DNA of 26,547 bases. Origin: a virus. Below the pieces are notes generated by a model that worked only from the letters and a program-made list of their open reading frames with translations, was not told the origin of the DNA and did no database searches. Numbering within the stretch: the stretch's first letter is position 1; each line of letters starts with the position of its first letter. Where the stretch lies: positions 1 to 26,547 of the IMG/VR virus record IMGVR_UViG_3300035670_001097; one strand, written 5' to 3'. The translations under genes were made by a program, and so were the position numbers. Positions 4,858 through 20,985 of the stretch are shown one piece after another.

Positions 4858-5745
4858 TCAAAACTCCGTTATGTCCGTTTCGTCCGATACGGCCGTAGGC
4901 GAACAACGTTTTTCATCTGGAAATTCCCGAATCAAAAGGTCATGCGGAATAGGTCTAACCTTGTCCACCTGCTTGAAGAAAAACGGCGTTCCTGCTGTTT
5001 TGCACTCGTCGCGAAGATTACGAGCCCATTGCAAATTAAACGGCCTCTTGCGCGGACCTGACTCCCCGCCGCATATTACCCAGTCCACGCAATGAAGTTT
5101 TCCCACGATCTCGCGGAAGCGTTCGTTTACTTCATCTAACAACACATTTTCAACGACGCTGGTAGGGAACCTAACAGTCCTGAGTGTAATAGGCTCAAGC
5201 ATTGGCTCGACTGACAGGAAACGAATGGCCGCAGGAATCTTTAACAGTGCATGAATGCGCTCCTCGGCCCGGCGTTGGTCCTCAACGGTAGTTCCGATCC
5301 ATACGTTTAGAGGTGGTAAACCATCGTACCAAGCGCCGACAAAGTTTTTAAGCCGTTCGCTTATAGTAACGTCCCACACATCGCCGATTCTTCCGCTCCA
5401 CAACTTTGGACGCTTCGTAAGCAACAACCATTTCAAATCTGGCGTTTCCATAATGTGGTAAAGAAGATCCTCCAGCCATGCCAACGGCACTTCTGGATCG
5501 AGCCAATCGGAAAGAGACGCGCAAAACACCTTGCTTCCTGGGTTTGTCCTGTTCAGTTTCAGAACATTTTCCCAGTTCGCGTCCGACGTGCGTACCCGCT
5601 TTTCCCCGGCTCCCCATTTGACTCTTTTCCATCGCGTATCCATCAACGCCTCGGCGTAGCAGTTCTTACACCCAGGCGAAACGTGCGTACACCCGATCCA
5701 AGGATTAAACGTGTGGTCGCACCATTCTATTTTACTGTTTTCCAT
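4858..5745 (-). CDS. Phage Gp37/Gp68-family (DUF5131) radical-SAM-like protein
   Basis: 295 residues. The N-terminus IEWCDHTFNPWIGCTHVSPG, followed by CKNCYAE, is the family hallmark. Cys19, Cys26 and Cys29 (C-x6-C-x2-C) would hold a 4Fe-4S cluster as in radical-SAM enzymes. Further family-like blocks are LLLTKRP (about 107-113), IGTTVEDQ, RFLSVEPML and ICGGESGP. The reaction and substrate of this family are not known to me. The gene is visibly more A/T-rich than its neighbours and sits between replication and packaging genes, which suggests an acquired accessory gene (moron). Its last codons (SDETDITEF) are encoded by a nonamer array that also supplies the RBS of the terminase ATPase gene. 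Upstream is only a weak RBS (GGAAG). Confidence 0.8.
   Translation of the reverse strand: MENSKIEWCDHTFNPWIGCTHVSPGCKNCYAEALMDTRWKRVKWGAGEKRVRTSDANWENVLKLNRTNPGSKVFCASLSDWLDPEVPLAWLEDLLYHIMETPDLKWLLLTKRPKLWSGRIGDVWDVTISERLKNFVGAWYDGLPPLNVWIGTTVEDQRRAEERIHALLKIPAAIRFLSVEPMLEPITLRTVRFPTSVVENVLLDEVNERFREIVGKLHCVDWVICGGESGPRKRPFNLQWARNLRDECKTAGTPFFFKQVDKVRPIPHDLLIREFPDEKRCSPTAVSDETDITEF
4865..4899. repeat. Nonamer array c (TCCGTT type)
   Basis: Units TCCGTTATG, TCCGTTTCG, TCCGATACG and a degenerate GCCGTAGG. It is inside the 3' end of the DUF5131 gene and ends eight bases from the TTG start of the terminase ATPase gene. Confidence 0.65.
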
Positions 5746-6610: not shown

Positions 6611-6848
6611 CGTCGCGTTCCTCTCGTTGTTGTTTAGCGGCCTCTTTCCAGGCCTTAACCCGTCTCGTCTTGAACCCCTCCGCCTCGGCCAGCGTAGGGA
6701 AAATCCCCATCAGCGTGTATTCCGACGACTCCCGACGGCTCACCGCCTGCACATTGCGAACCAGCATATCGCGGTACGTCCGGATCGACAGAGATGCCGT
6801 CGGGTGCCATTCCACAACCCACTGATCAAGTATGTCCGTGGAACTCAT
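6567..6848 (-). CDS. Hypothetical protein downstream of the helicase
   Basis: 93 residues. It starts inside the 3' end of the helicase gene (23-base overlap), with AGGA in front of the ATG. The N-terminal half (QWVVEWHPTASLSIRTYRDM) looks beta-rich; the C-terminal part is a charged helix (FKTRRVKAWKEAAKQQREER). The tight packing suggests co-translation with the helicase. Function unknown. Confidence 0.5.
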   Translation of the reverse strand: MSSTDILDQWVVEWHPTASLSIRTYRDMLVRNVQAVSRRESSEYTLMGIFPTLAEAEGFKTRRVKAWKEAAKQQREERDDDTENGIERTCDEI

Positions 6849-8304
6849 GAATCAATTCCTGCTCGTCAACCTGCCCGGGCTTACCGTCGCCATCCTCCCC
6901 GTGGCATCCCCGGTTCATGTACGCATCCAGATTGGGTTGATTGTTTTTGTCATACTCATCCCACCAGTCATTGACCGTCTCGAACCTGAAATACCGCTTC
7001 AACATCACAACCGGAATCGCACCCAGCTTCCCGTTCTGGTGCTTCTGCACATCGAACCAACTGGCCCGAACCTTGTCGTTATCCGGGACATTGTAAGCGC
7101 GGTAAACCATGATTACCTTGGAAGCGTCTTGCTCGATGTACCCGCTCCCGCGCAAATCGCGCAGCGTCGGGGGCTTTTCCTTTTTGTCCTCCGGACGACT
7201 CAACTGGCACAGAATTAACCCGGGCAACTCCAATTCGCCCAGCAGGTTTTTCAAGCCGCCGCTTACCGCGGTCACCCTGGAGTATTCATGCTGATCGACT
7301 TTCGAATCCCCCGTGTTCACCAGTTGCAGATAATCCAACGTCACCAGCTTTATCCCATACCGCCTCTTAAAACTCCGAACCGTGCTGCAGATCCGCCCCA
7401 GGGAAGTCATCCCGTCCTCGAGCCCCATAACCCACATCGGCAACTTCCCAATTTCCTTCCCGGCATTTTCCAGCGCGGCGAGCTGGTTTTGTTTGGCAAA
7501 CCCGGCTTTCGCCTTGGAAATGGATACCCCGGCCATCCTCCCTTGCATCCTCATCAACAAATCGGTCTTGTTCATATCCAGGCAAATTCGCAGCACGGGG
7601 ATACCAGCGAAAGCGTTATACTCAGCTATCATATCCTCCACGATAGTCTTTCCCTCGCTTGGCCGCCCCGCCGCGATGGTAATCCCCTTTTCCAACCCGA
7701 TGATGATTTCATTCAGTTTTTGCCACGGCGTGCTCGCATCGCAAATCGGCGCACCCTTCTCCTTGGCCTGTCTAAACGACTCGACATTGCTCAAACAAAT
7801 ATCCGCGTTGCTACGAACCTCGAAAACTGACTCCGCCAAATCGTAGAACGTTTCCGGAGCCGACTTCAAAAGCTTTTCCCCGTCGCCGGATTTTTCAAAG
7901 CCCTCCTCAACCAACCTCCGCGCCCCGGTAATAACCTGACGCAGCAACCACCGATTGCGCACCATCTCCAGGTAATAACCCGCATGCACGGAGGTGGGCG
8001 CCGCGTCCATCGCGTCCTGCAGAAACTTATCCCAATCCGAATAAGCACCGTCAGACTTCGAAATCCAATCCCCGATGGTCAACAGGTCAATCGGCTTTCC
8101 GGCGGCGTGCATCTCCACCGCCGCCTTAAACGCCATGCCGGTACGCGGCATATAGAACGCCGAGTGATCGATCTTGAAATGCTTCTCCGCCATATCCAGC
8201 ACCCGGTCCGAATCAAGCACCACACATCCAATCACCGCCATCTCAGCCTCCTCGGAAAATGGAGGTTGCCGATCCGAGGGCGCGCTGTATTTTTTTTCAG
8301 TCAT
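6826..8304 (-). CDS. Replicative DNA helicase, DnaB type
   Basis: About 492 residues. N-terminal DnaB domain (EEAEMAVIGCVVLDSDRVLD and following, roughly residues 15-115), a linker, then the RecA-like ATPase domain. Walker A is GRPSEGKT (about 213-220), Walker B is LVTLDYLQLVN, followed by QLSRP and LRDLRGSGYIEQDA, all DnaB signatures. It unwinds DNA as a hexameric ring at the phage replication fork. I chose the ATG at 8304, which overlaps the stop of the upstream initiator gene; a longer frame begins at 8349. Directly downstream of the initiator gene, which probably loads it. Confidence 0.9.
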   Translation of the reverse strand: MTEKKYSAPSDRQPPFSEEAEMAVIGCVVLDSDRVLDMAEKHFKIDHSAFYMPRTGMAFKAAVEMHAAGKPIDLLTIGDWISKSDGAYSDWDKFLQDAMDAAPTSVHAGYYLEMVRNRWLLRQVITGARRLVEEGFEKSGDGEKLLKSAPETFYDLAESVFEVRSNADICLSNVESFRQAKEKGAPICDASTPWQKLNEIIIGLEKGITIAAGRPSEGKTIVEDMIAEYNAFAGIPVLRICLDMNKTDLLMRMQGRMAGVSISKAKAGFAKQNQLAALENAGKEIGKLPMWVMGLEDGMTSLGRICSTVRSFKRRYGIKLVTLDYLQLVNTGDSKVDQHEYSRVTAVSGGLKNLLGELELPGLILCQLSRPEDKKEKPPTLRDLRGSGYIEQDASKVIMVYRAYNVPDNDKVRASWFDVQKHQNGKLGAIPVVMLKRYFRFETVNDWWDEYDKNNQPNLDAYMNRGCHGEDGDGKPGQVDEQELIHEFHGHT

Positions 8305-9061
8305 TTTCAAGCCCCGCAAATCTCCTGGGTCGGTACTCCTCCTGTTCATCGCTACTCGACTTCAGCGCGTCCACCTCCGCACGACTCATCCAGGAATACC
8401 ACGTCCGGCCTGGCTCTTTTTCAGCGTTCAGGTTGCAGCCATACTTGTCGGCGAATTTTTTTGCCTCGGCGTTTGCATCGGCCTTGGGAAACGCTCTGAT
8501 CGCCCGGATGAACGCCTCAAACGACATGTGCCGAACCGGGGCGGAATCCTGGATGGCCTCCCACCCTTCTTTCCATTTTCCGGGATCAACCTCCTCAGTC
8601 GAGAGAGAGCCCTCTCCCTCTGGCTTTGGTTCTGGCTCTGGCTCTGGCTCTGGCTGACGCGACTCGGAATTTATTTTTGGCTTTCCAGTCGCGACAAGTC
8701 GCGACTTTGTTCCTCGTCTTGGTTTGTCTCCATTCCAATATAGCAACCCTTTGTCATTCAAATACTTATCAACAGCATCATCCGAATGCTCAGACCAACC
8801 GTGAATAACAAGTCGCGACTTGTCGTTTTTTTCGAGCCATCCAGTCGCGACAAATGCTTGTATAAGTCGCGACTGGTCTTCTCTCCAATCGAGGCGATTA
8901 GCTATTACAGAATCAGACCATTTCCCAATATCTCCAATAGGTGCATATCTGGCAGTAAAATGCCAAAGCATTTCAAGCAGGCCAACCGCTTGGTGAATAG
9001 GGATGTCAAGGGCGCTTGCCAGGGCAAGCATTTTTGGGTGATCCGGTGTTCCTCTTTTCAT
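8297..9061 (-). CDS. Phage replication initiator / helicase-loader-like protein
   Basis: 254 residues from the ATG at 9061, which has GGAGG five bases upstream and overlaps the preceding TAA. The N-terminus (MKRGTPDHPKMLALASALD through about residue 100) resembles the winged-helix domain of phage replication proteins that bind the origin. A linker of repeated Glu-Pro (about residues 135-150, from a 6-bp DNA repeat) leads to a C-terminal helical part (SFEAFIRAIRAFPKADANAE..., WYSWM) that may bind the helicase. It is followed immediately by the DnaB helicase gene, the same order as O-P in lambda-like phages. The coding sequence contains clustered GTCGCGAC palindromes that may be the origin. Function is inferred from context and fold impression. 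Confidence 0.65.
   Translation of the reverse strand: MKRGTPDHPKMLALASALDIPIHQAVGLLEMLWHFTARYAPIGDIGKWSDSVIANRLDWREDQSRLIQAFVATGWLEKNDKSRLVIHGWSEHSDDAVDKYLNDKGLLYWNGDKPRRGTKSRLVATGKPKINSESRQPEPEPEPEPKPEGEGSLSTEEVDPGKWKEGWEAIQDSAPVRHMSFEAFIRAIRAFPKADANAEAKKFADKYGCNLNAEKEPGRTWYSWMSRAEVDALKSSSDEQEEYRPRRFAGLEND
8628..8654. repeat. 6-bp tandem repeat (GGCTCT) encoding a Glu-Pro linker
   Basis: Repeated GGCTCT units on the plus strand give alternating Glu-Pro in the initiator protein. It separates the putative DNA-binding and helicase-contact parts. Confidence 0.7.
8687..8874. other. Candidate replication origin: five GTCGCGAC iterons inside the initiator gene
   Basis: The 8-bp palindrome GTCGCGAC, mostly as AGTCGCGACT or AGTCGCGACA, occurs at 8687-8696, 8697-8706, 8811-8820, 8843-8852 and 8865-8874; a degenerate copy is near 8655. 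Start-to-start distances are 10, 114, 32 and 22, close to whole helical turns. The copies fall in two reading frames (encoding Ser-Arg-Leu or Val-Ala-Thr), so they are conserved as DNA rather than as peptide. A/T-rich stretches lie between and beside them. Lambda-like phages keep their origin iterons within the initiator gene in the same way. Confidence 0.55.
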
Positions 9062-9507
9062 TACCACCTCCCCCTTGCGCGCGGGCAGGCACCCACCAGG
9101 CGGTAAATCCCGCCGCGTCCGACCGTGGCCTTGAACGGCGCCATGCCGGCCCGGAAGTTTTTTGAAGTCCGAACCGCCACCCTGACTTTCCGACCGTCTT
9201 GGGTAACCGCCTCGATCAGCTTCGGATTCCGTCCAAACGCCCTGGAGAACGAAAGCTCCTCCACCGACCCCTCAGCCATCGCGGCCATGATGGAACTGAA
9301 AGAAACGGGCATGCCGATTTTTTTTATGACCTCCTGTACCCCTTCATCAGAGTACCGAATCTCACGCTGAACGATGTCCCAATGCGTCCCCTTGTCGATA
9401 CCCATACCATCGCCACCCTGGCGCAACCGCGTAATTTCAGCCCTATCCACGCCTATTTTTTCGGCAATACGAGCTTCGCTCCATTTGAACACTGATTTTT
9501 CATCCAT
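9061..9507 (-). CDS. HTH-containing early phage protein
   Basis: 148 residues. The N-terminus has a helix-turn-helix-like segment (WSEARIAEKIGVDRAEITRL, about residues 9-28), followed by an unrecognised C-terminal part (TQDGRKVRVAVRTSKNF). A strong RBS, AAAGGAGG, lies five bases before the ATG. It is the first gene of the leftward replication operon and its stop overlaps the initiator start. A regulator or a partner in replication initiation would both fit. Confidence 0.55.
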   Translation of the reverse strand: MDEKSVFKWSEARIAEKIGVDRAEITRLRQGGDGMGIDKGTHWDIVQREIRYSDEGVQEVIKKIGMPVSFSSIMAAMAEGSVEELSFSRAFGRNPKLIEAVTQDGRKVRVAVRTSKNFRAGMAPFKATVGRGGIYRLVGACPRARGRW

Positions 9508-9663: not shown

Positions 9664-9704
9664 GATTGCGTCCCGATTGCGTCCCGATTGCGTCCCGATT
9701 GCGT
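9664..9704. repeat. 11-bp tandem repeat GATTGCGTCCC
   Basis: Three full copies (9664-9674, 9675-9685, 9686-9696) and eight bases of a fourth. The 11-bp period puts each copy on the same face of the DNA helix, as in iterons or clustered operators. Confidence 0.8.
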
Positions 9705-13194: not shown

Positions 13195-13352
13195 TGAAAC
13201 AAATGCAAAAAACGAAACCAGAACCATGAAAAACCCGGATAGTCGTTGAGGGCATCGACCCGCGCGATAAAGCCGGCTGGGTGAAAGCGGCCCAGCGGGC
13301 CGGGTTGAAGCTCCGGGAGTGGATCATTGCGCGCCTCAACGGCCAGCTTTAG
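13194..13352 (+). pseudogene. Third RHH gene interrupted by an in-frame TGA
   Basis: The frame starts at ATG 13194-13196, overlapping the stop of the previous gene. It reads 11 codons, meets TGA at 13227-13229, and continues open for 40 codons to TAG at 13350-13352. The downstream part has RHH layout: strand KTRIVVEGI, helix DPRDKAGWVKAAQRAG, helix KLREWIIARLNG. CGA to TGA is the simplest explanation: a C-to-T nonsense change would restore Pro-Arg-Lys-Thr. No in-frame start with an RBS lies after the TGA. Its last 17 bases overlap the end of the giant gene on the other strand. A sequencing error is possible. Confidence 0.6.
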
Positions 13353-16300
13353 CCTTTTCCATGGCTTCCTCGATAGCCACCTTTTCCGCGGTGCTTTGCG
13401 CGTTCATTAAAGCCCGCACGTCCGGCGGCATGTATCCGCCCCCTTTGCTGGCCTGGTTCATCAGGTACGGGGCCGCGGCCGGGTATTTCTTTACCGCCCC
13501 CTGCAGCGCGGCGCCGCGGGTGGCGTCCGGCTCCGCCAGCGCCTTTTGCACCTCCAGGCGCCCGGCCGCGCCCTGGGCCCGGGCGTCCATGATCGGCCCC
13601 TTGACTGAATCGTACAGCCCGCGGTCGGAAATCTTGATCCATCGCCCGATTGAGTTGCTGACGATAGGGAGATTCAGAAACTTCTCCATGGGCGGCGCCT
13701 TCGCGTCGCGCATATACCAGTTGTCCGCCTGCAACCGGGTGACGATCCCACCCCCGAGGCTGTTCCAGGCATACCGCGCCATGGCACCATCCGCATCCTT
13801 GGACAGATCCCGGGCGGCGAAAACGTCATCTCGTAACAAAAGCTCCCCACGGAAACGGTCGTAGGGGTTACGGTCGAGAAGCTTGTACGCGTACCAATCC
13901 ACCGCCACCTTGGAAATCGGGTTTTGCGTGGGCACCTGCCCGCCGGCATAGCTCCCGATACCCTGGGCCCCGCGGCCCGTGTCGGACAGTCTGTTCAGCA
14001 TCAGCCAGAACGCGCCGCCCATCATCCGTTGCCCCTCGTCCAGGGGCATCCGGTGATACACCAGTTTCTTAGGCCCGGCCGGGGTTTCCTCCCAAATCCA
14101 TGAGAATTTCCCGGACTTCATGTCCTGCCACCCCAGCGGGGTGTTCACATAGTTGGTTTGGTCATAATCCCCGATGTATCGCCCCGCCTCCTCCATCTTG
14201 TCCGACAGCCATTTCCCGAGGATCATCCGCAGCCCGCCCGTGAACAGCGCGAACTGTATAGCTTTCGGCAAAAACGCATATTTAAGCTGGTGCCAAATAT
14301 ACGATGCCCAGCCTTCTTTGAAGGCCTTGACCTCCGAGCGAACGCTTTGTTTCCAGGGGTTGTAGTACATCGCGGAAAACAGCTCGATCACCGGGTTAAA
14401 CGCCGGCTTGTCCAGGAAGTCCGGCGACCCGGCCAGGTTATGCACCATGTTTTGCTTTTTCCACTCCGGGAGGTTTGAAAAATGCTCGTCCAGGTACAGC
14501 ATGCCGGCAATCTTGAACGTGCGTTCAGATATTTGACCGATCTGCGTCCACTTATCCCACAGCCTCAGCAGGCGCGCCCCGGGCGACACCGCCGACCGGC
14601 GCCACAAAACCGGGTTTTGATGCCAGTTGTTTAGTAATCGTTCGTATACCGTATCCACGTCGGAAAGCCCTTGCGGATTTGCTACGGAAATAAGGTCATT
14701 CCGCATCAGCGCATCCTTGGCGATTTCGTTCGGACGCCCATGGATGCCCGACCTCGAGGCCGCCCAGGATCGCGCGAAATACTTCCAGAACCCCCGCCGC
14801 CCGAACAGCGCCGCCTTCGGCATCTTGCGCGCGAACGCAAACATATCCCTTACGAACGCCACCGGCCAGAACCCGTAATTGATTTCCGTCATCACCCCCT
14901 TGATCGGCCGGTTCAAATACTTCGCCATCCCGGCCATCATCCGATTTTCGATCGTGTCCCCGTGCTGCAGGCCGGCATAGATCGACCGCGGCACATACAC
15001 CCCATGCAGCTTACCCTTGTGCAGATAGGTCAAGGTCTGGACGTTCTCCGACTGCTCCACTTTCGGGATTTGGCGCGTACCGTCCCACACGTTGGGCGCC
15101 CGGGCCACCATCGGATCCTTGATTTCCAGCAGCGCCTCGGCGGACAGCCGCTTCGCGTGCTCCCTGTGCGCCATGTTGATTAGCGATAGCGCCTTGGCCG
15201 CCAGCGCCGAGGCCGGATTCATGATGTCCTGCAGCGTCCCCACCTGACGGTAAATCTGCGAACCCGCTGCATCCCCATACATTCGGGCCAGTTCAAACTC
15301 GATGGTGCCCTCCTTGGCCGACACATCCCCGCGCACCACCGCAAACGTCGCGTAATACACCCGTTCCTCAAGCACCGCCTGCAGCTCTGGGGTCAGAATC
15401 TCGAAATCGCGCAGCGTCCCCAGCACATACTTCTCGTAAATTGCCCGGAACTCCAGCCGGGCCCGCTCCAGAGCGTCGAACCGTTGCCGGCCCAGCGATT
15501 CCAGCATGGATTCCAGACCGTCCGCGGCCGCCTTCGGATCGGTGGCGCCCGGGTTGGCCACGTCGGCCCGGTTGTGAAGAATATGCTGGTAAAACATGTA
15601 TTCCCCGAGGTTGGCCATGTCCAGCCCGTGCTCCAGTAACACCCCACCCACCCGCTGGTTCAACTCCGCCATGACCAGCTCGCTTTGAGCCGCCTTGTAT
15701 CGAAAATCCGCAAGCGCCTTCATCACCTGTCCCCGCCGCTCCTCCGGCAGCTTCGGCAGCCGACGGTAAATCGGCCCCAGGGTCCGATCGAACCCGTAAA
15801 TCAGCATGTCCGCCGCCATCTCAGCCTTCGCCTTGGCCGCCGAGGTATCGCCCCCGGCGAGCGACTTCCAGAACGACGGCGTGAATTTCAGGTCCATCCA
15901 ATCGGCGTCCGACTTCTGGAACCCTTCCAGCAGCCGGAGCCGCCGGTTCTTGTGCGCGGCCCCGGTCTTCAGCTCATTCTGAATTCGCTGCCATTGCGCC
16001 CGCACCAGAGGCTTCCGGTCCAGCCAGGCATTGAACGCGTTCCAGAACTGCGGGGCCCTGGTCGCCATGGCGGCCGGGTTCGTGAGGATCACCGAGAACG
16101 CTTCCGCATACATCTCATGCCCCTGCAAAAAATATTCCGGCACCTGTCCCCCCGGCTCGATCCCGCGCCACCAGGCAATCAAATCCTCCAACTCCTGCCG
16201 CACCTTATCCCGGTTAAGCAGGCCTCGCATTTCCTCTTGCTCGTCGCGCAGCTCCGCGTACTGCTTGCGCACCGCATCTTGCCAGGCCGCCAGGTCCGCC

Positions 16301-19300
16301 TCCTCATCCTTGGGCGGGCGGGGCCCTACCATCTTCTCCGCATCGCGCCGGAGCTTCTGCAGCTCTTTCTTGGTAAAAACATTCCCCTGCTTCGCCGGCG
16401 TCTCCCCCAGCCACCGCCGGAAATACTGCTGGAACGTGGCAATACGGGCCAGGATATTACCACGCCCGCGGATTATCCCTTCCGGATTAAAGTCAGCCAT
16501 GTGCCCGATCTCATGGGAAAGCGTCCGCGCGGCCTGTCGGGTGGTTTCCTGCATCCGCTTTTCCCGCGTCGTATCCCAAAAGAATTCAAAGCGGCGCTGG
16601 GCCACCCCGCCCACAAAATCAGCCTGTTCTTTCGTCATGTTCTCCGGGTCAAACCCCTCACCAAACTCGATGGACGCCTGGGCCAGCGCATCCTTGTTGG
16701 CCTGGGTCTGCATCTTTTCCAGCTCGTCCGGCATGATCAGTTGAAAAATATCCGCCCGCAGTCGGATCTTCCCGCTGTCGAGCTGCCCGGGGATGTGCCG
16801 GAAGTGTCCGTAAGCATTGCGCAAGAACTTGCGCACCTCCGGCGTTTCCCGCCCGTTGATCGCCCGGGCCAGCTCCAGCAGCTCCGGCAACTCCATCGCA
16901 TACGGCGCCGGGTTTGGGTCATCGCCGGGCTTCGGCACCCGCGGCGCCGGGGTCCCCAGGTCCGGCCGCGGGTCCCACCGCTCCACCGGCTTTTCGAACA
17001 CCCACCCCCCGGGGGCCTCGCGGACCGTCTCCATACGCCCCTCATGAAATGCAATAACGCCTTGTTCCCGCGCGCTCCATACTTCACCGTTTGCACCATC
17101 CAGCGTAAGCACATCTAAAATTTTCGCATGCGGGCTCGATTCTGCCAGTCGCTTGATCTGCTGCACTAACCCGGTATATTGAATAGCCTTTCCCGGTATT
17201 TCAATCACCATACCCACCCCGCTATTTCTCGAAACGATTTTCGCCAAAAGCGGGCCTACCTCGTTTTGCGGAATATCAATCGGAATACGCTCCAAAGCGT
17301 TCACTCGGTTTTTTGTGTCGAGCACCATCACGTGCCCATAACCCGGGTCCGCTTGACGCAATGCGCCAATAATTGGCCTTGCGTTTTCTGGAGTTCTTAC
17401 AATCCACTTTTTACTGGACTCCACCGCTTCCCATGGCGCTAAACTTTTGTTAGATATTTCACCTGCATTATAATCAATTTCCGGAGTAATTTCGACAAAG
17501 TTTTCCCCGTTTGTAACGACATGACCAAGCAATTTGATTCCGGATCTATCCAGTTCCTGCTTCATTTTCTTTGTCAGCAAAATATCTTCTGAGCTTGGTG
17601 CGGGATCTCCGCTTGGGTGATTATGCGATATCCACACCCCATCGACAGGTCCTTCGATTTTGTTCATAACGCGCATGACCATATCGGAAGACATCAATGT
17701 GGCGTTTAATTCGCCCATGCTCACCAACTCGCACGCCACCACCCGCCCATCCCGCACCGCCACCACCTTCGAACTCTCGAAATCCGGCGACCGGGCCGGT
17801 ATCATCATCGCCGCCACGTCCGCGGCGTCGCGCACCACCTGCCCCGCCACATTGAAAGCCGGAATCCGCCCGTCCACCAGATCCCGGAGCACCCAGCGCA
17901 CCCCCTGGGACATCCGGAACGCCTCCCGCAGCGCCCGCGCATTGCGCGGATTGGCGATCGCCGCCGCGTTGGCCTCCTCCGCGGTCATGGGAGGAGGCGC
18001 CGGAGCCCGGTAGGGCTCATGCAGCCCCGGCAATTCGAGCTGCGCCAGCGTATCCGCCAGCGCCTGCCCGGCCCTGGCAGGATTCTTCACCCCGTTCTTG
18101 GCCGCGAACGCCGCCACCGGCTCAAACAGCGATCCTTGCGACTCCGGCGCCGCAAACAAATCCGTCTGCCGTCCGGCGCCCCGGGCTGCCGCCGCCTTCG
18201 CCCGCATCGTATCCCGCCGGGCCACCGCCGCGCCGATCCGGGTCCACTTCGCTTGCGCTTCGTCTTCCGTCATCCGGCCGGCCGCCAGGTCTTCCAGCAG
18301 GTTCACCGCCTGCCGCTGCATCTCCCGGCTCTCCAACACCTGCACCGCGGTGGACGCCGTGGGCATCGGCTTTGCCGCCACGTCTTGCAGCAGCCGACGA
18401 AACGGGCTGGGCCCCGCCGCCATGCCGAACAGGTCTTGCTGCTCCTTTAATAGATTGGCCCCGGGCGCGCCGCCTGGTGTGGTCTTCTCATGGTTTCCCA
18501 TGAACGGAGCTGCCGCCGATGGCGGGCTTGGTGTGTCGATAAGGCCGGCGCGCGCCGAGGCCAAAGCTACTTTTGCGGGGTCGCTCCCCCAATGCTCCCA
18601 ATCCGCGATTTCCGCACGGAGACGGTCTATCTCCGCCAACGTTTCCTTCTCGTCCTTAAAATTTACCCCCATCTCCGCCGCCGCCTCCGGACGCTTCAGC
18701 GCCCCGATGGCCGCCCGGATCTTGTTCTTCATCTCCTCCACGAATTTTTGCGCCGCATTTGCCCGCGCGATCGAGTCATTCAGCGCCTGATCGCTGGTCC
18801 CAAACAGATCCCCCTGGGCGCCCGCCTTCTTCGCGGTCGGAAACGCTTTGCGGCTCTGAATAAAATGCTTCGGGCTCAACTTTGAATCCCGGCCCAGCAT
18901 GTAGACCGCCTCGCGCTGCAGGTCCGTATCCAAAGGCGCCGCTTCCGCTATTTCCGCGGCCGCATCCGTATTAAGCTTACCACTTTGCCAAAGGGCAAAG
19001 GAGTCGGGCGATAAATAGCTGGCGATGGCGAAGGACTTCCGGCCAAGGGCTCTTGCAAGGAGTCCTTTGTCCCGGGCTTCAGGCTCTGAGATGTTTGACC
19101 CTTTGAAGAATTGAACGTAGTCATCGAGATCGCCCTTTCCGTCTAAAATGTTCTTTTCTGCGTCCATCACCGCCGCGTCTTCCGCGGTGAACCCATCTTC
19201 CTCCCTGAAAACCTCGGCCAGCATCTTAGGGTATCCCGTGCGAACCGCCAAATCCCGCCGATGCCGCCCGGAAATCACTTCCAGGTCCCCATTCTTCCGC

Positions 19301-20985
19301 TCCCATACCTGGATAATCCCCGCCGCGCCCACGTCATACTCCCCGCCAAGCTTTTGCCCTTCCACAACCCCCGTTCGTGGGTCGGCCCCTCGCTTAAAGT
19401 TTGGCACATCCTTGGAAAGTTTCAAGCTGTCCGTATCCAGCCAGCGAATATTCTCCGCCCCAGGCGGCGCCATCCTCACCCACGCATCCGCATGGGCCTG
19501 GTAGCTCTCCACAAACCCCTCCGGCAACCCCTCCAGGTCCGCGGGTCCGGCCTCCGTTACGTCCGTTAAGTCCGCTTCCCCCACTGGCACCCCCTGCACC
19601 GGCCCTTCCTCAATCTTACCCGTATCCGGCAACTGATCTTCCAAAGGTTGGAAATCCGGCTCCTCCTTCTTTCCAACCTTTGGAACCCGGCCGCGCTCGC
19701 GCATCCCGGACGCCTGCAGCATCGCCCCGCCGGCCGTTTCCGCCGCGCCGCTCCCCACCTCCGCCAGCCCTTCCGCGAAAACCGCCACCGGGTTAAACCG
19801 CTCCCCGGCCGCCACCTGCCCGGCCGCCTCCCCGGCCATCCCCATTCCGGCCTGCTTCCCCGCCTCCTTGCCGGCAGCCGCCAGCTTGTTGAACAACCCG
19901 ATTGCCGGCTTTTCTACCACCTTCGCCCCGATCAACACCGACGCCGCGTCGAACATTCCCACCGTCAACCCGCGCCGCCAGGCCAGGCTTCGCGCCTTGC
20001 TCATGATCTTCGGATCCGTAAATCCGCGCTGTACGTCCTTGGGGTCGTCCAGATTCACCCCGGCTTTTTCCAGGCTTTCCAGCAGCTTCCCGGCATACTC
20101 CACCGAAAGCGACGCCCCGCCGGTCCCCGCCGCCAGGCCGGCCAGTGCCCCCGCCGAGGTCCCCACCAGCGGGATAACCGACCCCGCGCCCGCACCCGCC
20201 GCCACCCCCGCCGGTACGTTCTGCACCACCGCCGGCAACAGGTTGCCGAGGCTTTCCGCAATCAACTCCGAGGTCACCGCCAGCGGATTCTTAGCAAACG
20301 CCTTGGCCGCCTGGGCAAAATCGTCCGTCTGAAACGCCGCATACTCCGGGCTGGTCGGAACATCGCCCGACTCTTTCCGCAACTCCACCAGGGCCCAAGC
20401 TGCCTCCTGATTGGCCGGGTTATATTCCAATTGCTGCGAGGCAATCATCTGCTGCCCCTGATTGGCCCCCCGCCTCCAGGCCGCCTTGATCTGGTCAGCG
20501 CTTGGTATCTGGTCGTCAAGCGCCTCGTTGGCCCCAAGGAACGCCCGCATGATCCCTTCCGAAAGATTCACCCTGCCCAGCACCTCCCCCACCGTAGGCG
20601 CCTGCCACTCCGGGACCTGCAAATTCCCCTGGGCGAACACCCGTTGAAACCCGGGCGGATCCGGAACCGGGTCATATTTCAACGTCTGGTACTTCGAGAA
20701 ATCAGGAAAAGCCAGCTCGTCCTCCACCTCCTGCTCCAGCTTCGCCGCCGCGGCCGGCACGGGAAACGCATCCGGGTACTTCTTCCGCACCCGCCGGAAA
20801 AATTCCTGCCGGGTCGCCTCCTGCTTCTCCGGCTCCATTTCCTCAAACGCCTGCAGGTTGCCCGGGGAATTGGCCTGCCACGTATCGAACAGCCGCCCCA
20901 TGGCCGCATTGAGCGCGTCGGGATTCTGCGCCACCTTCTGCCAGCGCGGATCGCCCAGCACCTCGCTGATGTCGAACCCGGTCAC
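13336..20985 (-). CDS. Giant polyvalent virion protein (ParB-like, RadC/JAB, zincin, LPD-like C-terminus)
   Basis: 2549 residues. From the N-terminus: a helical region; Gly/Ala-rich hydrophobic stretches (about 245-295 and 365-430); a ParB-like domain with SGRHRRDLA (His575) and a following helical part; linkers with Q-x-D/S-L-F motifs (724-982); a RadC/JAB domain with HNHPSGDP (His1121, His1123, Asp1127); a second, degenerate JAB-like segment (about 1188-1275); a zinc-protease HEIGH (1491-1495); and a long helical C-terminus with WDKWTQIGQISERTFKIAG, resembling LPD-type domains of phage polyvalent proteins. Such proteins are packaged and ejected with the DNA to protect or process it in the host. 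The start is GTG, overlapping the previous stop (GTGA), with AAGGG upstream. Confidence 0.85.
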   Translation of the reverse strand: MTGFDISEVLGDPRWQKVAQNPDALNAAMGRLFDTWQANSPGNLQAFEEMEPEKQEATRQEFFRRVRKKYPDAFPVPAAAAKLEQEVEDELAFPDFSKYQTLKYDPVPDPPGFQRVFAQGNLQVPEWQAPTVGEVLGRVNLSEGIMRAFLGANEALDDQIPSADQIKAAWRRGANQGQQMIASQQLEYNPANQEAAWALVELRKESGDVPTSPEYAAFQTDDFAQAAKAFAKNPLAVTSELIAESLGNLLPAVVQNVPAGVAAGAGAGSVIPLVGTSAGALAGLAAGTGGASLSVEYAGKLLESLEKAGVNLDDPKDVQRGFTDPKIMSKARSLAWRRGLTVGMFDAASVLIGAKVVEKPAIGLFNKLAAAGKEAGKQAGMGMAGEAAGQVAAGERFNPVAVFAEGLAEVGSGAAETAGGAMLQASGMRERGRVPKVGKKEEPDFQPLEDQLPDTGKIEEGPVQGVPVGEADLTDVTEAGPADLEGLPEGFVESYQAHADAWVRMAPPGAENIRWLDTDSLKLSKDVPNFKRGADPRTGVVEGQKLGGEYDVGAAGIIQVWERKNGDLEVISGRHRRDLAVRTGYPKMLAEVFREEDGFTAEDAAVMDAEKNILDGKGDLDDYVQFFKGSNISEPEARDKGLLARALGRKSFAIASYLSPDSFALWQSGKLNTDAAAEIAEAAPLDTDLQREAVYMLGRDSKLSPKHFIQSRKAFPTAKKAGAQGDLFGTSDQALNDSIARANAAQKFVEEMKNKIRAAIGALKRPEAAAEMGVNFKDEKETLAEIDRLRAEIADWEHWGSDPAKVALASARAGLIDTPSPPSAAAPFMGNHEKTTPGGAPGANLLKEQQDLFGMAAGPSPFRRLLQDVAAKPMPTASTAVQVLESREMQRQAVNLLEDLAAGRMTEDEAQAKWTRIGAAVARRDTMRAKAAAARGAGRQTDLFAAPESQGSLFEPVAAFAAKNGVKNPARAGQALADTLAQLELPGLHEPYRAPAPPPMTAEEANAAAIANPRNARALREAFRMSQGVRWVLRDLVDGRIPAFNVAGQVVRDAADVAAMMIPARSPDFESSKVVAVRDGRVVACELVSMGELNATLMSSDMVMRVMNKIEGPVDGVWISHNHPSGDPAPSSEDILLTKKMKQELDRSGIKLLGHVVTNGENFVEITPEIDYNAGEISNKSLAPWEAVESSKKWIVRTPENARPIIGALRQADPGYGHVMVLDTKNRVNALERIPIDIPQNEVGPLLAKIVSRNSGVGMVIEIPGKAIQYTGLVQQIKRLAESSPHAKILDVLTLDGANGEVWSAREQGVIAFHEGRMETVREAPGGWVFEKPVERWDPRPDLGTPAPRVPKPGDDPNPAPYAMELPELLELARAINGRETPEVRKFLRNAYGHFRHIPGQLDSGKIRLRADIFQLIMPDELEKMQTQANKDALAQASIEFGEGFDPENMTKEQADFVGGVAQRRFEFFWDTTREKRMQETTRQAARTLSHEIGHMADFNPEGIIRGRGNILARIATFQQYFRRWLGETPAKQGNVFTKKELQKLRRDAEKMVGPRPPKDEEADLAAWQDAVRKQYAELRDEQEEMRGLLNRDKVRQELEDLIAWWRGIEPGGQVPEYFLQGHEMYAEAFSVILTNPAAMATRAPQFWNAFNAWLDRKPLVRAQWQRIQNELKTGAAHKNRRLRLLEGFQKSDADWMDLKFTPSFWKSLAGGDTSAAKAKAEMAADMLIYGFDRTLGPIYRRLPKLPEERRGQVMKALADFRYKAAQSELVMAELNQRVGGVLLEHGLDMANLGEYMFYQHILHNRADVANPGATDPKAAADGLESMLESLGRQRFDALERARLEFRAIYEKYVLGTLRDFEILTPELQAVLEERVYYATFAVVRGDVSAKEGTIEFELARMYGDAAGSQIYRQVGTLQDIMNPASALAAKALSLINMAHREHAKRLSAEALLEIKDPMVARAPNVWDGTRQIPKVEQSENVQTLTYLHKGKLHGVYVPRSIYAGLQHGDTIENRMMAGMAKYLNRPIKGVMTEINYGFWPVAFVRDMFAFARKMPKAALFGRRGFWKYFARSWAASRSGIHGRPNEIAKDALMRNDLISVANPQGLSDVDTVYERLLNNWHQNPVLWRRSAVSPGARLLRLWDKWTQIGQISERTFKIAGMLYLDEHFSNLPEWKKQNMVHNLAGSPDFLDKPAFNPVIELFSAMYYNPWKQSVRSEVKAFKEGWASYIWHQLKYAFLPKAIQFALFTGGLRMILGKWLSDKMEEAGRYIGDYDQTNYVNTPLGWQDMKSGKFSWIWEETPAGPKKLVYHRMPLDEGQRMMGGAFWLMLNRLSDTGRGAQGIGSYAGGQVPTQNPISKVAVDWYAYKLLDRNPYDRFRGELLLRDDVFAARDLSKDADGAMARYAWNSLGGGIVTRLQADNWYMRDAKAPPMEKFLNLPIVSNSIGRWIKISDRGLYDSVKGPIMDARAQGAAGRLEVQKALAEPDATRGAALQGAVKKYPAAAPYLMNQASKGGGYMPPDVRALMNAQSTAEKVAIEEAMEKAKAGR
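17090..17720 (-). other. A/T-rich island within the giant gene covering the two JAB-like segments
   Basis: By eye this stretch is much richer in A and T than the flanking coding sequence and uses different third positions. It covers the catalytic end of the RadC/JAB domain and the degenerate copy, which suggests later acquisition by domain exchange. Confidence 0.5.
19553..19579. repeat. Nonamer array e inside the giant gene
   Basis: TCCGTTACG, TCCGTTAAG, TCCGCTTCC, encoding Glu-Ala-Asp-Leu-Thr-Asp-Val-Thr-Glu in a linker. It is the same unit as the arrays in front of genes, without a start codon nearby. Confidence 0.6.

Follow-up and report, generated by a model that had tools for sequence, protein, structure and literature searches.

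The window, a virus record analysed over its whole length of 26,547 bp, carries a replication-initiator gene at positions 8297-9067 of the minus strand, encoding 256 aa from a GTG at 9067 or 254 aa from an ATG at 9061. The whole protein matches phrog_9474, a family annotated as replication initiation protein, with an E-value of 2.5e-20. A gene for a DnaB-type replicative helicase (6826-8349, minus strand; Pfam DnaB_C E 7.9e-47, DnaB E 5.2e-15) lies downstream and overlaps the end of the initiator gene. The record also encodes integrase, tail-fibre, head-closure and weak portal matches, which mark its source as a tailed phage, possibly a temperate one. Elsewhere, a DUF5131 gene of phrog_2045, function unknown, is found at 4858-5745, and positions 13336-20985 hold an ORF of 2549 residues, a giant gene for a phage record, one stretch of which weakly matches a DNA-repair protein.

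The initiator is composed of a predicted winged-helix-like N-domain, an acidic Pro-Glu linker and a C-domain. In the AlphaFold2 model of the N-domain (pLDDT 93.5), helices lead into a wing of two strands, and the model resembles a predicted phage replisome organizer in BFVD (TMq 0.69, rmsd 2.1, E 8.3e-4). The model has no match in the PDB at E<=0.001, Pfam and solved-structure searches with the N-domain yield nothing usable, and an Rfam search of the window gives no match. By sequence the protein belongs to phrog_9474, which is matched by 49 of 49 aligned relatives; phrog_13246, phrog_2509 and phrog_3926 are more distant relatives, as is the initiator of Faecalibacterium phage FP_Lagaffe, which likewise carries significant in-gene repeats. 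Upstream of the initiator of Synechococcus phage Sc-Yong805-2 (L007) lies a gene whose annotation reads bacteriophage protein gp37.

The palindrome GTCGCGAC occurs in five exact copies in the window against 0.63 expected, a count that none of 100 shuffles reaches. All five lie inside 186 bp (8688-8873), and none is found elsewhere in the 26.5-kb virus record. The original prediction had placed five palindromes in fewer than 190 bases, embedded in the initiator gene; both statements hold, the initiator being the phrog_9474 member at 8297-9067. The copies, located by exact word count and without strand assignment, are iteron 1 at 8688-8695 (context AGTCGCGACA), iteron 2 at 8698-8705 (context AAGTCGCGACTT), iteron 3 at 8812-8819 (context ACAAGTCGCGACTTGT), iteron 4 at 8844-8851 and iteron 5 at 8866-8873. 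A degenerate sixth copy with one mismatch, GACGCGAC, also unstranded, lies at 8656-8663, 32 bp from iteron 1, a distance equal to that between iterons 3 and 4. The iterons share the context AGTCGCGACW, with longer palindromes at iterons 2, 3 and 5, and AGTCGCGACT is the candidate target DNA of the initiator N-domain.

The iterons are distributed over two reading frames, as had been claimed: gene positions 188, 242 and 356 are in frame 2, and 210 and 366 are in frame 0, so that the same word is translated as K/Q-SRL in some copies and as VAT in others. Among 20,000 synonymous-codon shuffles of the initiator gene, five copies never arise and the maximum, four, is reached once. Frame usage and shuffles together speak strongly against a peptide repeat as the source of the palindromes, in agreement with the earlier assertion that no repeated peptide explains them. 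The spacing is, as claimed, close to whole turns. At 10.5 bp per turn the successive spacings are 0.95, 10.86, 3.05 and 2.10 turns, and phase coherence is 0.91 (0.935 at the best period between 10 and 11 bp). Random placements match this in 2.6% of cases if the period is left free over 10-11 bp, and the helical phasing of the window iterons is thus suggestive only.

Between the two iteron groups lies a relatively AT-rich spacer of 39.6% GC (8706-8811, no strand assigned), which is a candidate unwinding region. A second stretch, 8874-9000, has 44.1% GC, and most of the window is at about 55-60%. The A/T-rich surroundings originally described are real in relative terms only: parts of the window elsewhere have a higher A/T content, and averaged over the initiator family the GC dip amounts to only 3-6%. 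GC skew runs monotonically, without a switch at the iteron site; because the main genes all lie on one strand, it is uninformative on the origin.

Directly after the iterons in the coding direction comes a hexamer repeat, (GAGCCA)n on the coding strand (8616-8668, minus strand; TRF core 8618-8655), which encodes PEPEPEPEPKP. By a strict test, 38 of 66 initiator genes have a period-6 array but only 1 of 166 neighbouring ORFs does, and iterons precede the array in the coding direction in all 19 relatives in which the order can be judged. The common hexamer is RCCNNN on the coding strand. It mostly encodes EP, and otherwise SH/SR, HT, NQ/NH, TE, AI or AL; across the family the arrays are read in three frames, with frame switches inside a single array in L018, L031 and L047. 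RCC is kept in 8 of 11 independent non-proline arrays against 19% expected, with a binomial tail of 1.7e-4 for what is a hand-picked list compared post hoc. Since one DNA word is retained across three frames and chemically unlike dipeptides, the (RCCNNN)n array could itself serve the origin as DNA, perhaps as a strand-specific site of unwinding or helicase loading in place of the usual AT-rich element, although we regard this as rather doubtful. In viral contigs, (GCCAGA)n and (GCCWTA)n arrays turn up frequently and in many genes, and with such arrays so widespread in unrelated viral genes, an ordinary disordered linker made by slippage is the likelier reading. The hexamer array is not supported as an origin-specific marker, given that only 6 of about 91 GCCAGA-array loci are initiators.

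An alignment-based scan of viral contigs returned 70 loci related to the initiator, which together with loci from other searches give 66 distinct genes. Repeated 8-mers within 300 bp, direct and inverted, were counted in each gene against synonymous-codon shuffles, after masking of the hexamer arrays and removal of direct pairs whose distance was a multiple of six, up to 60. By this test 35 of the 66 initiator genes are significant at p<=0.01, with 2569 repeat pairs observed against 834 expected; about half of the relatives fail it. Neighbouring ORFs, taken as controls, are significant in 15 of 166 cases and also exceed expectation (2890 pairs against 2102), so the shuffle null errs a little towards leniency and the proper comparison is between 53% and 9%. 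When the relatives are clustered at 60% identity, 25 of 36 clusters hold at least one significant member. Lambda gene O, used as a positive control, gives 45 pairs where 7.9 are expected; the same test is negative for lambda P. Four further initiators met incidentally have p values of 0.005, 0.015, 0.13 and 0.65, two of the four passing at 0.05.

The arrangement of these repeats follows the DNA helix. Direct-repeat spacings in the 66 relatives peak at 10/11, 20-22, 33 and 44 bp and are spread evenly modulo 3 (691/657/600); being helix-like and indifferent to the codon register, they indicate that the repeats act at the DNA level. The repeats peak 300-450 nt into the initiator gene, where the DNA-binding domain ends and the linker is encoded. 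Initiator genes, 58.7 kb in all, contain 52 tandem arrays with periods of 10, 11, 20-22 or 33, and 288.8 kb of flanks contain 6, so that the density is about 43 times higher in the genes. The sequence comparisons thus support in-gene, helically spaced and frame-independent repeats as a property of the initiator family. Within the DNA-binding domain of the L073 initiator, at codons ~70-115, large in-frame 24-bp repeats (TTETPDKL) are inserted.

The repeated word itself mostly differs between relatives. It is TGTCGAGACA in L025, GGAAAAGTCG in L011 and ACAGAAACTCA in L040, GTGCGCAC-like in L010, L031 and L035, and ATTCGCGA in L075 and L076. The closest relative of the window initiator, L012, whose N-domain is 61% identical, retains GTCGCGAC in six copies, of which part correspond in position to those of the window and part fall within a 13-residue insert that the window protein lacks. 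Repeat similarity follows protein similarity weakly (Mantel p 0.001, r 0.22), and a few close pairs carry most of the correlation. GTCGCGAC-type repeats are also found in L061 and L074, whose proteins are more distant, so this core word has either recurred or persisted.

Taken together, these features make it likely that the palindromes are iterons of the phage's own initiator and that the replication origin lies within the gene, with its core at ~8650-8880, the five copies very probably being landing sites of the initiator encoded around them. Several lines of evidence point this way. Firstly, the five sites are explained neither by peptide repeats nor by codon use. The second is the identity of the genes, a phrog_9474 initiator beside a DnaB helicase. 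The third and strongest is that relatives carry DNA-level repeats in the same region of the same gene. Finally, L012 keeps the palindrome and has extra copies in its insert. The locus combines two features expected of an in-gene origin, namely clustered, DNA-constrained repeats in an initiator gene and a helicase gene in the same module, and the origin candidate originally proposed there gains support from family identity, the DnaB gene and the repeats across the 66 relatives. Counting against it are the lack of a strong AT-rich unwinding element, a rival repeat array at 9664-9704 and the roughly half of relatives that do not pass the repeat test.

The architecture is already known from phages lambda and SPP1, and the initiator family, like lambda, apparently has its replication origin tucked away within the gene for the initiator. 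In lambda, too, initiator sites lie mid-gene where a domain meets the linker, at intervals of roughly one to two helical turns, a helicase-related gene is next in line after the initiator, and the repeats of gene O are recovered by the same test. The parallel that was originally drawn with lambda thus stands for architecture but not for protein homology: the initiator looks unrelated to lambda O, with no detectable homology between O and the N-domain family (hhalign probability 0.2%, E 0.33). The window has perfect palindromes of ~10 bp whereas lambda has 18-bp iterons, its next gene encodes a DnaB helicase rather than a loader, and, unlike lambda, it carries a hexamer array but lacks a marked AT-rich region. 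In Stx phages, two extra iterons add 13 residues to O (PMC7466680), a gain that resembles the 13-residue insert of L012 with its extra GTCGCGAC copies. In SPP1, oriL lies inside gene 38, its direct repeats are bound by the initiator gp38, and the module includes a DnaB-type helicase (PMC6316719). SPP1 thus shares with the window an origin within the initiator gene, predicted in the case of the window, and a DnaB-type helicase in the same module; SPP1 (gp38/gp39/gp40) differs from the window in its separate loader and in possessing a second origin, oriR. The iteron plasmids RK2 and F also pair helix-phased, repeated initiator sites with winged-helix initiators, the N-domain of the window protein being predicted to be winged-helix-like. 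Plasmid iterons are located outside coding sequence. They adjoin an AT-rich unwinding element (PMC4081077, PMC5043065). In the literature searched, which took in few subscription journals, we found no description of the origins of phrog_9474 members, and iteron turnover in this initiator family likewise appears undescribed there.

Lambda O and SPP1 gp38 bind in-gene repeats, destabilise adjacent DNA and bring in the helicase (PMC7466680, PMC6316719, PMC5043065). By analogy, we infer initiator binding, melting, helicase loading and origin activity at the window site. N-domain dimers of the initiator would sit on the phased palindromes and wrap the DNA, and an adjacent stretch, either the 40% GC spacer or the DNA beside the hexamer repeats, would be destabilised. 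The C-terminal part of the initiator may then bring in the DnaB helicase encoded next door. The putative origin core at ~8650-8880 also codes for the last part of the DNA-binding domain and for the linker.

The alternative that survives best is that the palindromes bind the initiator mainly for autoregulation of the operon or for fork control and that replication starts elsewhere, for example at 9664-9704. A perfect 11-bp tandem repeat, GATTGCGTCCC, is present there in 3.7 copies and scores highest among the tandem repeats of the window. It lies in the non-coding gap that precedes a 148-aa gene and the initiator, and it could be an operator or the true origin. A comparable array is found in L072, in which four ACGCAAT words 10-11 bp apart lie ~185 bp upstream of the initiator. 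However, most relatives have phased arrays inside the initiator gene, with only the six mentioned across all flanks, and L012 keeps GTCGCGAC while a pattern scan found no ACGCAAT array there; we judge a start elsewhere unlikely. Lower still is the probability that the palindromes are sites of some other protein, such as a host factor, a phage repressor or a methyltransferase, and lie in the initiator gene by chance. A handful of unrelated viral contigs do contain pairs of GTCGCGAC, for the most part within or close to gaps that precede packaging genes, so the word is not confined to initiators. Among relatives, however, the motif varies and tracks the initiator, a pattern not to be expected if a fixed protein, of the host or of a third party, were the binder, and this makes the reading very improbable. 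Least credible, with hardly any weight, are repeats with no DNA-site function that arose by slippage or as a by-product of protein-level selection on SRL/VATG peptides in the wing and linker: SRL and VAT do recur in the initiator protein and phage linkers commonly hold simple repeats, but the DNA word is shared between two frames, synonymous shuffling fails to produce five copies, family spacings follow the helix rather than the reading frame, and inverted and dispersed copies are also present.

Arrays of GTCGCGAC were also considered as an origin marker across the collection and rejected, as the five viral contigs with close pairs have them near terminase and other genes and not in initiators; by itself the palindrome is thus not diagnostic. 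In the near-identical viral contigs L081, L082 and L084, a 32-bp repeat containing GTCGCGAC is present in two copies in the gap just upstream of terminase; it is probably unrelated to origins.

If the palindromes are indeed iterons of an in-gene origin, the window would represent an uncharacterised phage replicon family in which the iterons have changed often while their position and spacing have been kept. The family would then offer dozens of initiator-iteron pairs, with signal in 25 of 36 clusters, as a data set for how the N-domain chooses its DNA site, and origins could be located in unannotated phage contigs by sequence alone. A fast-changing DNA signal and the protein that reads it would be overlaid in one gene, a clean case of overlapping constraint.
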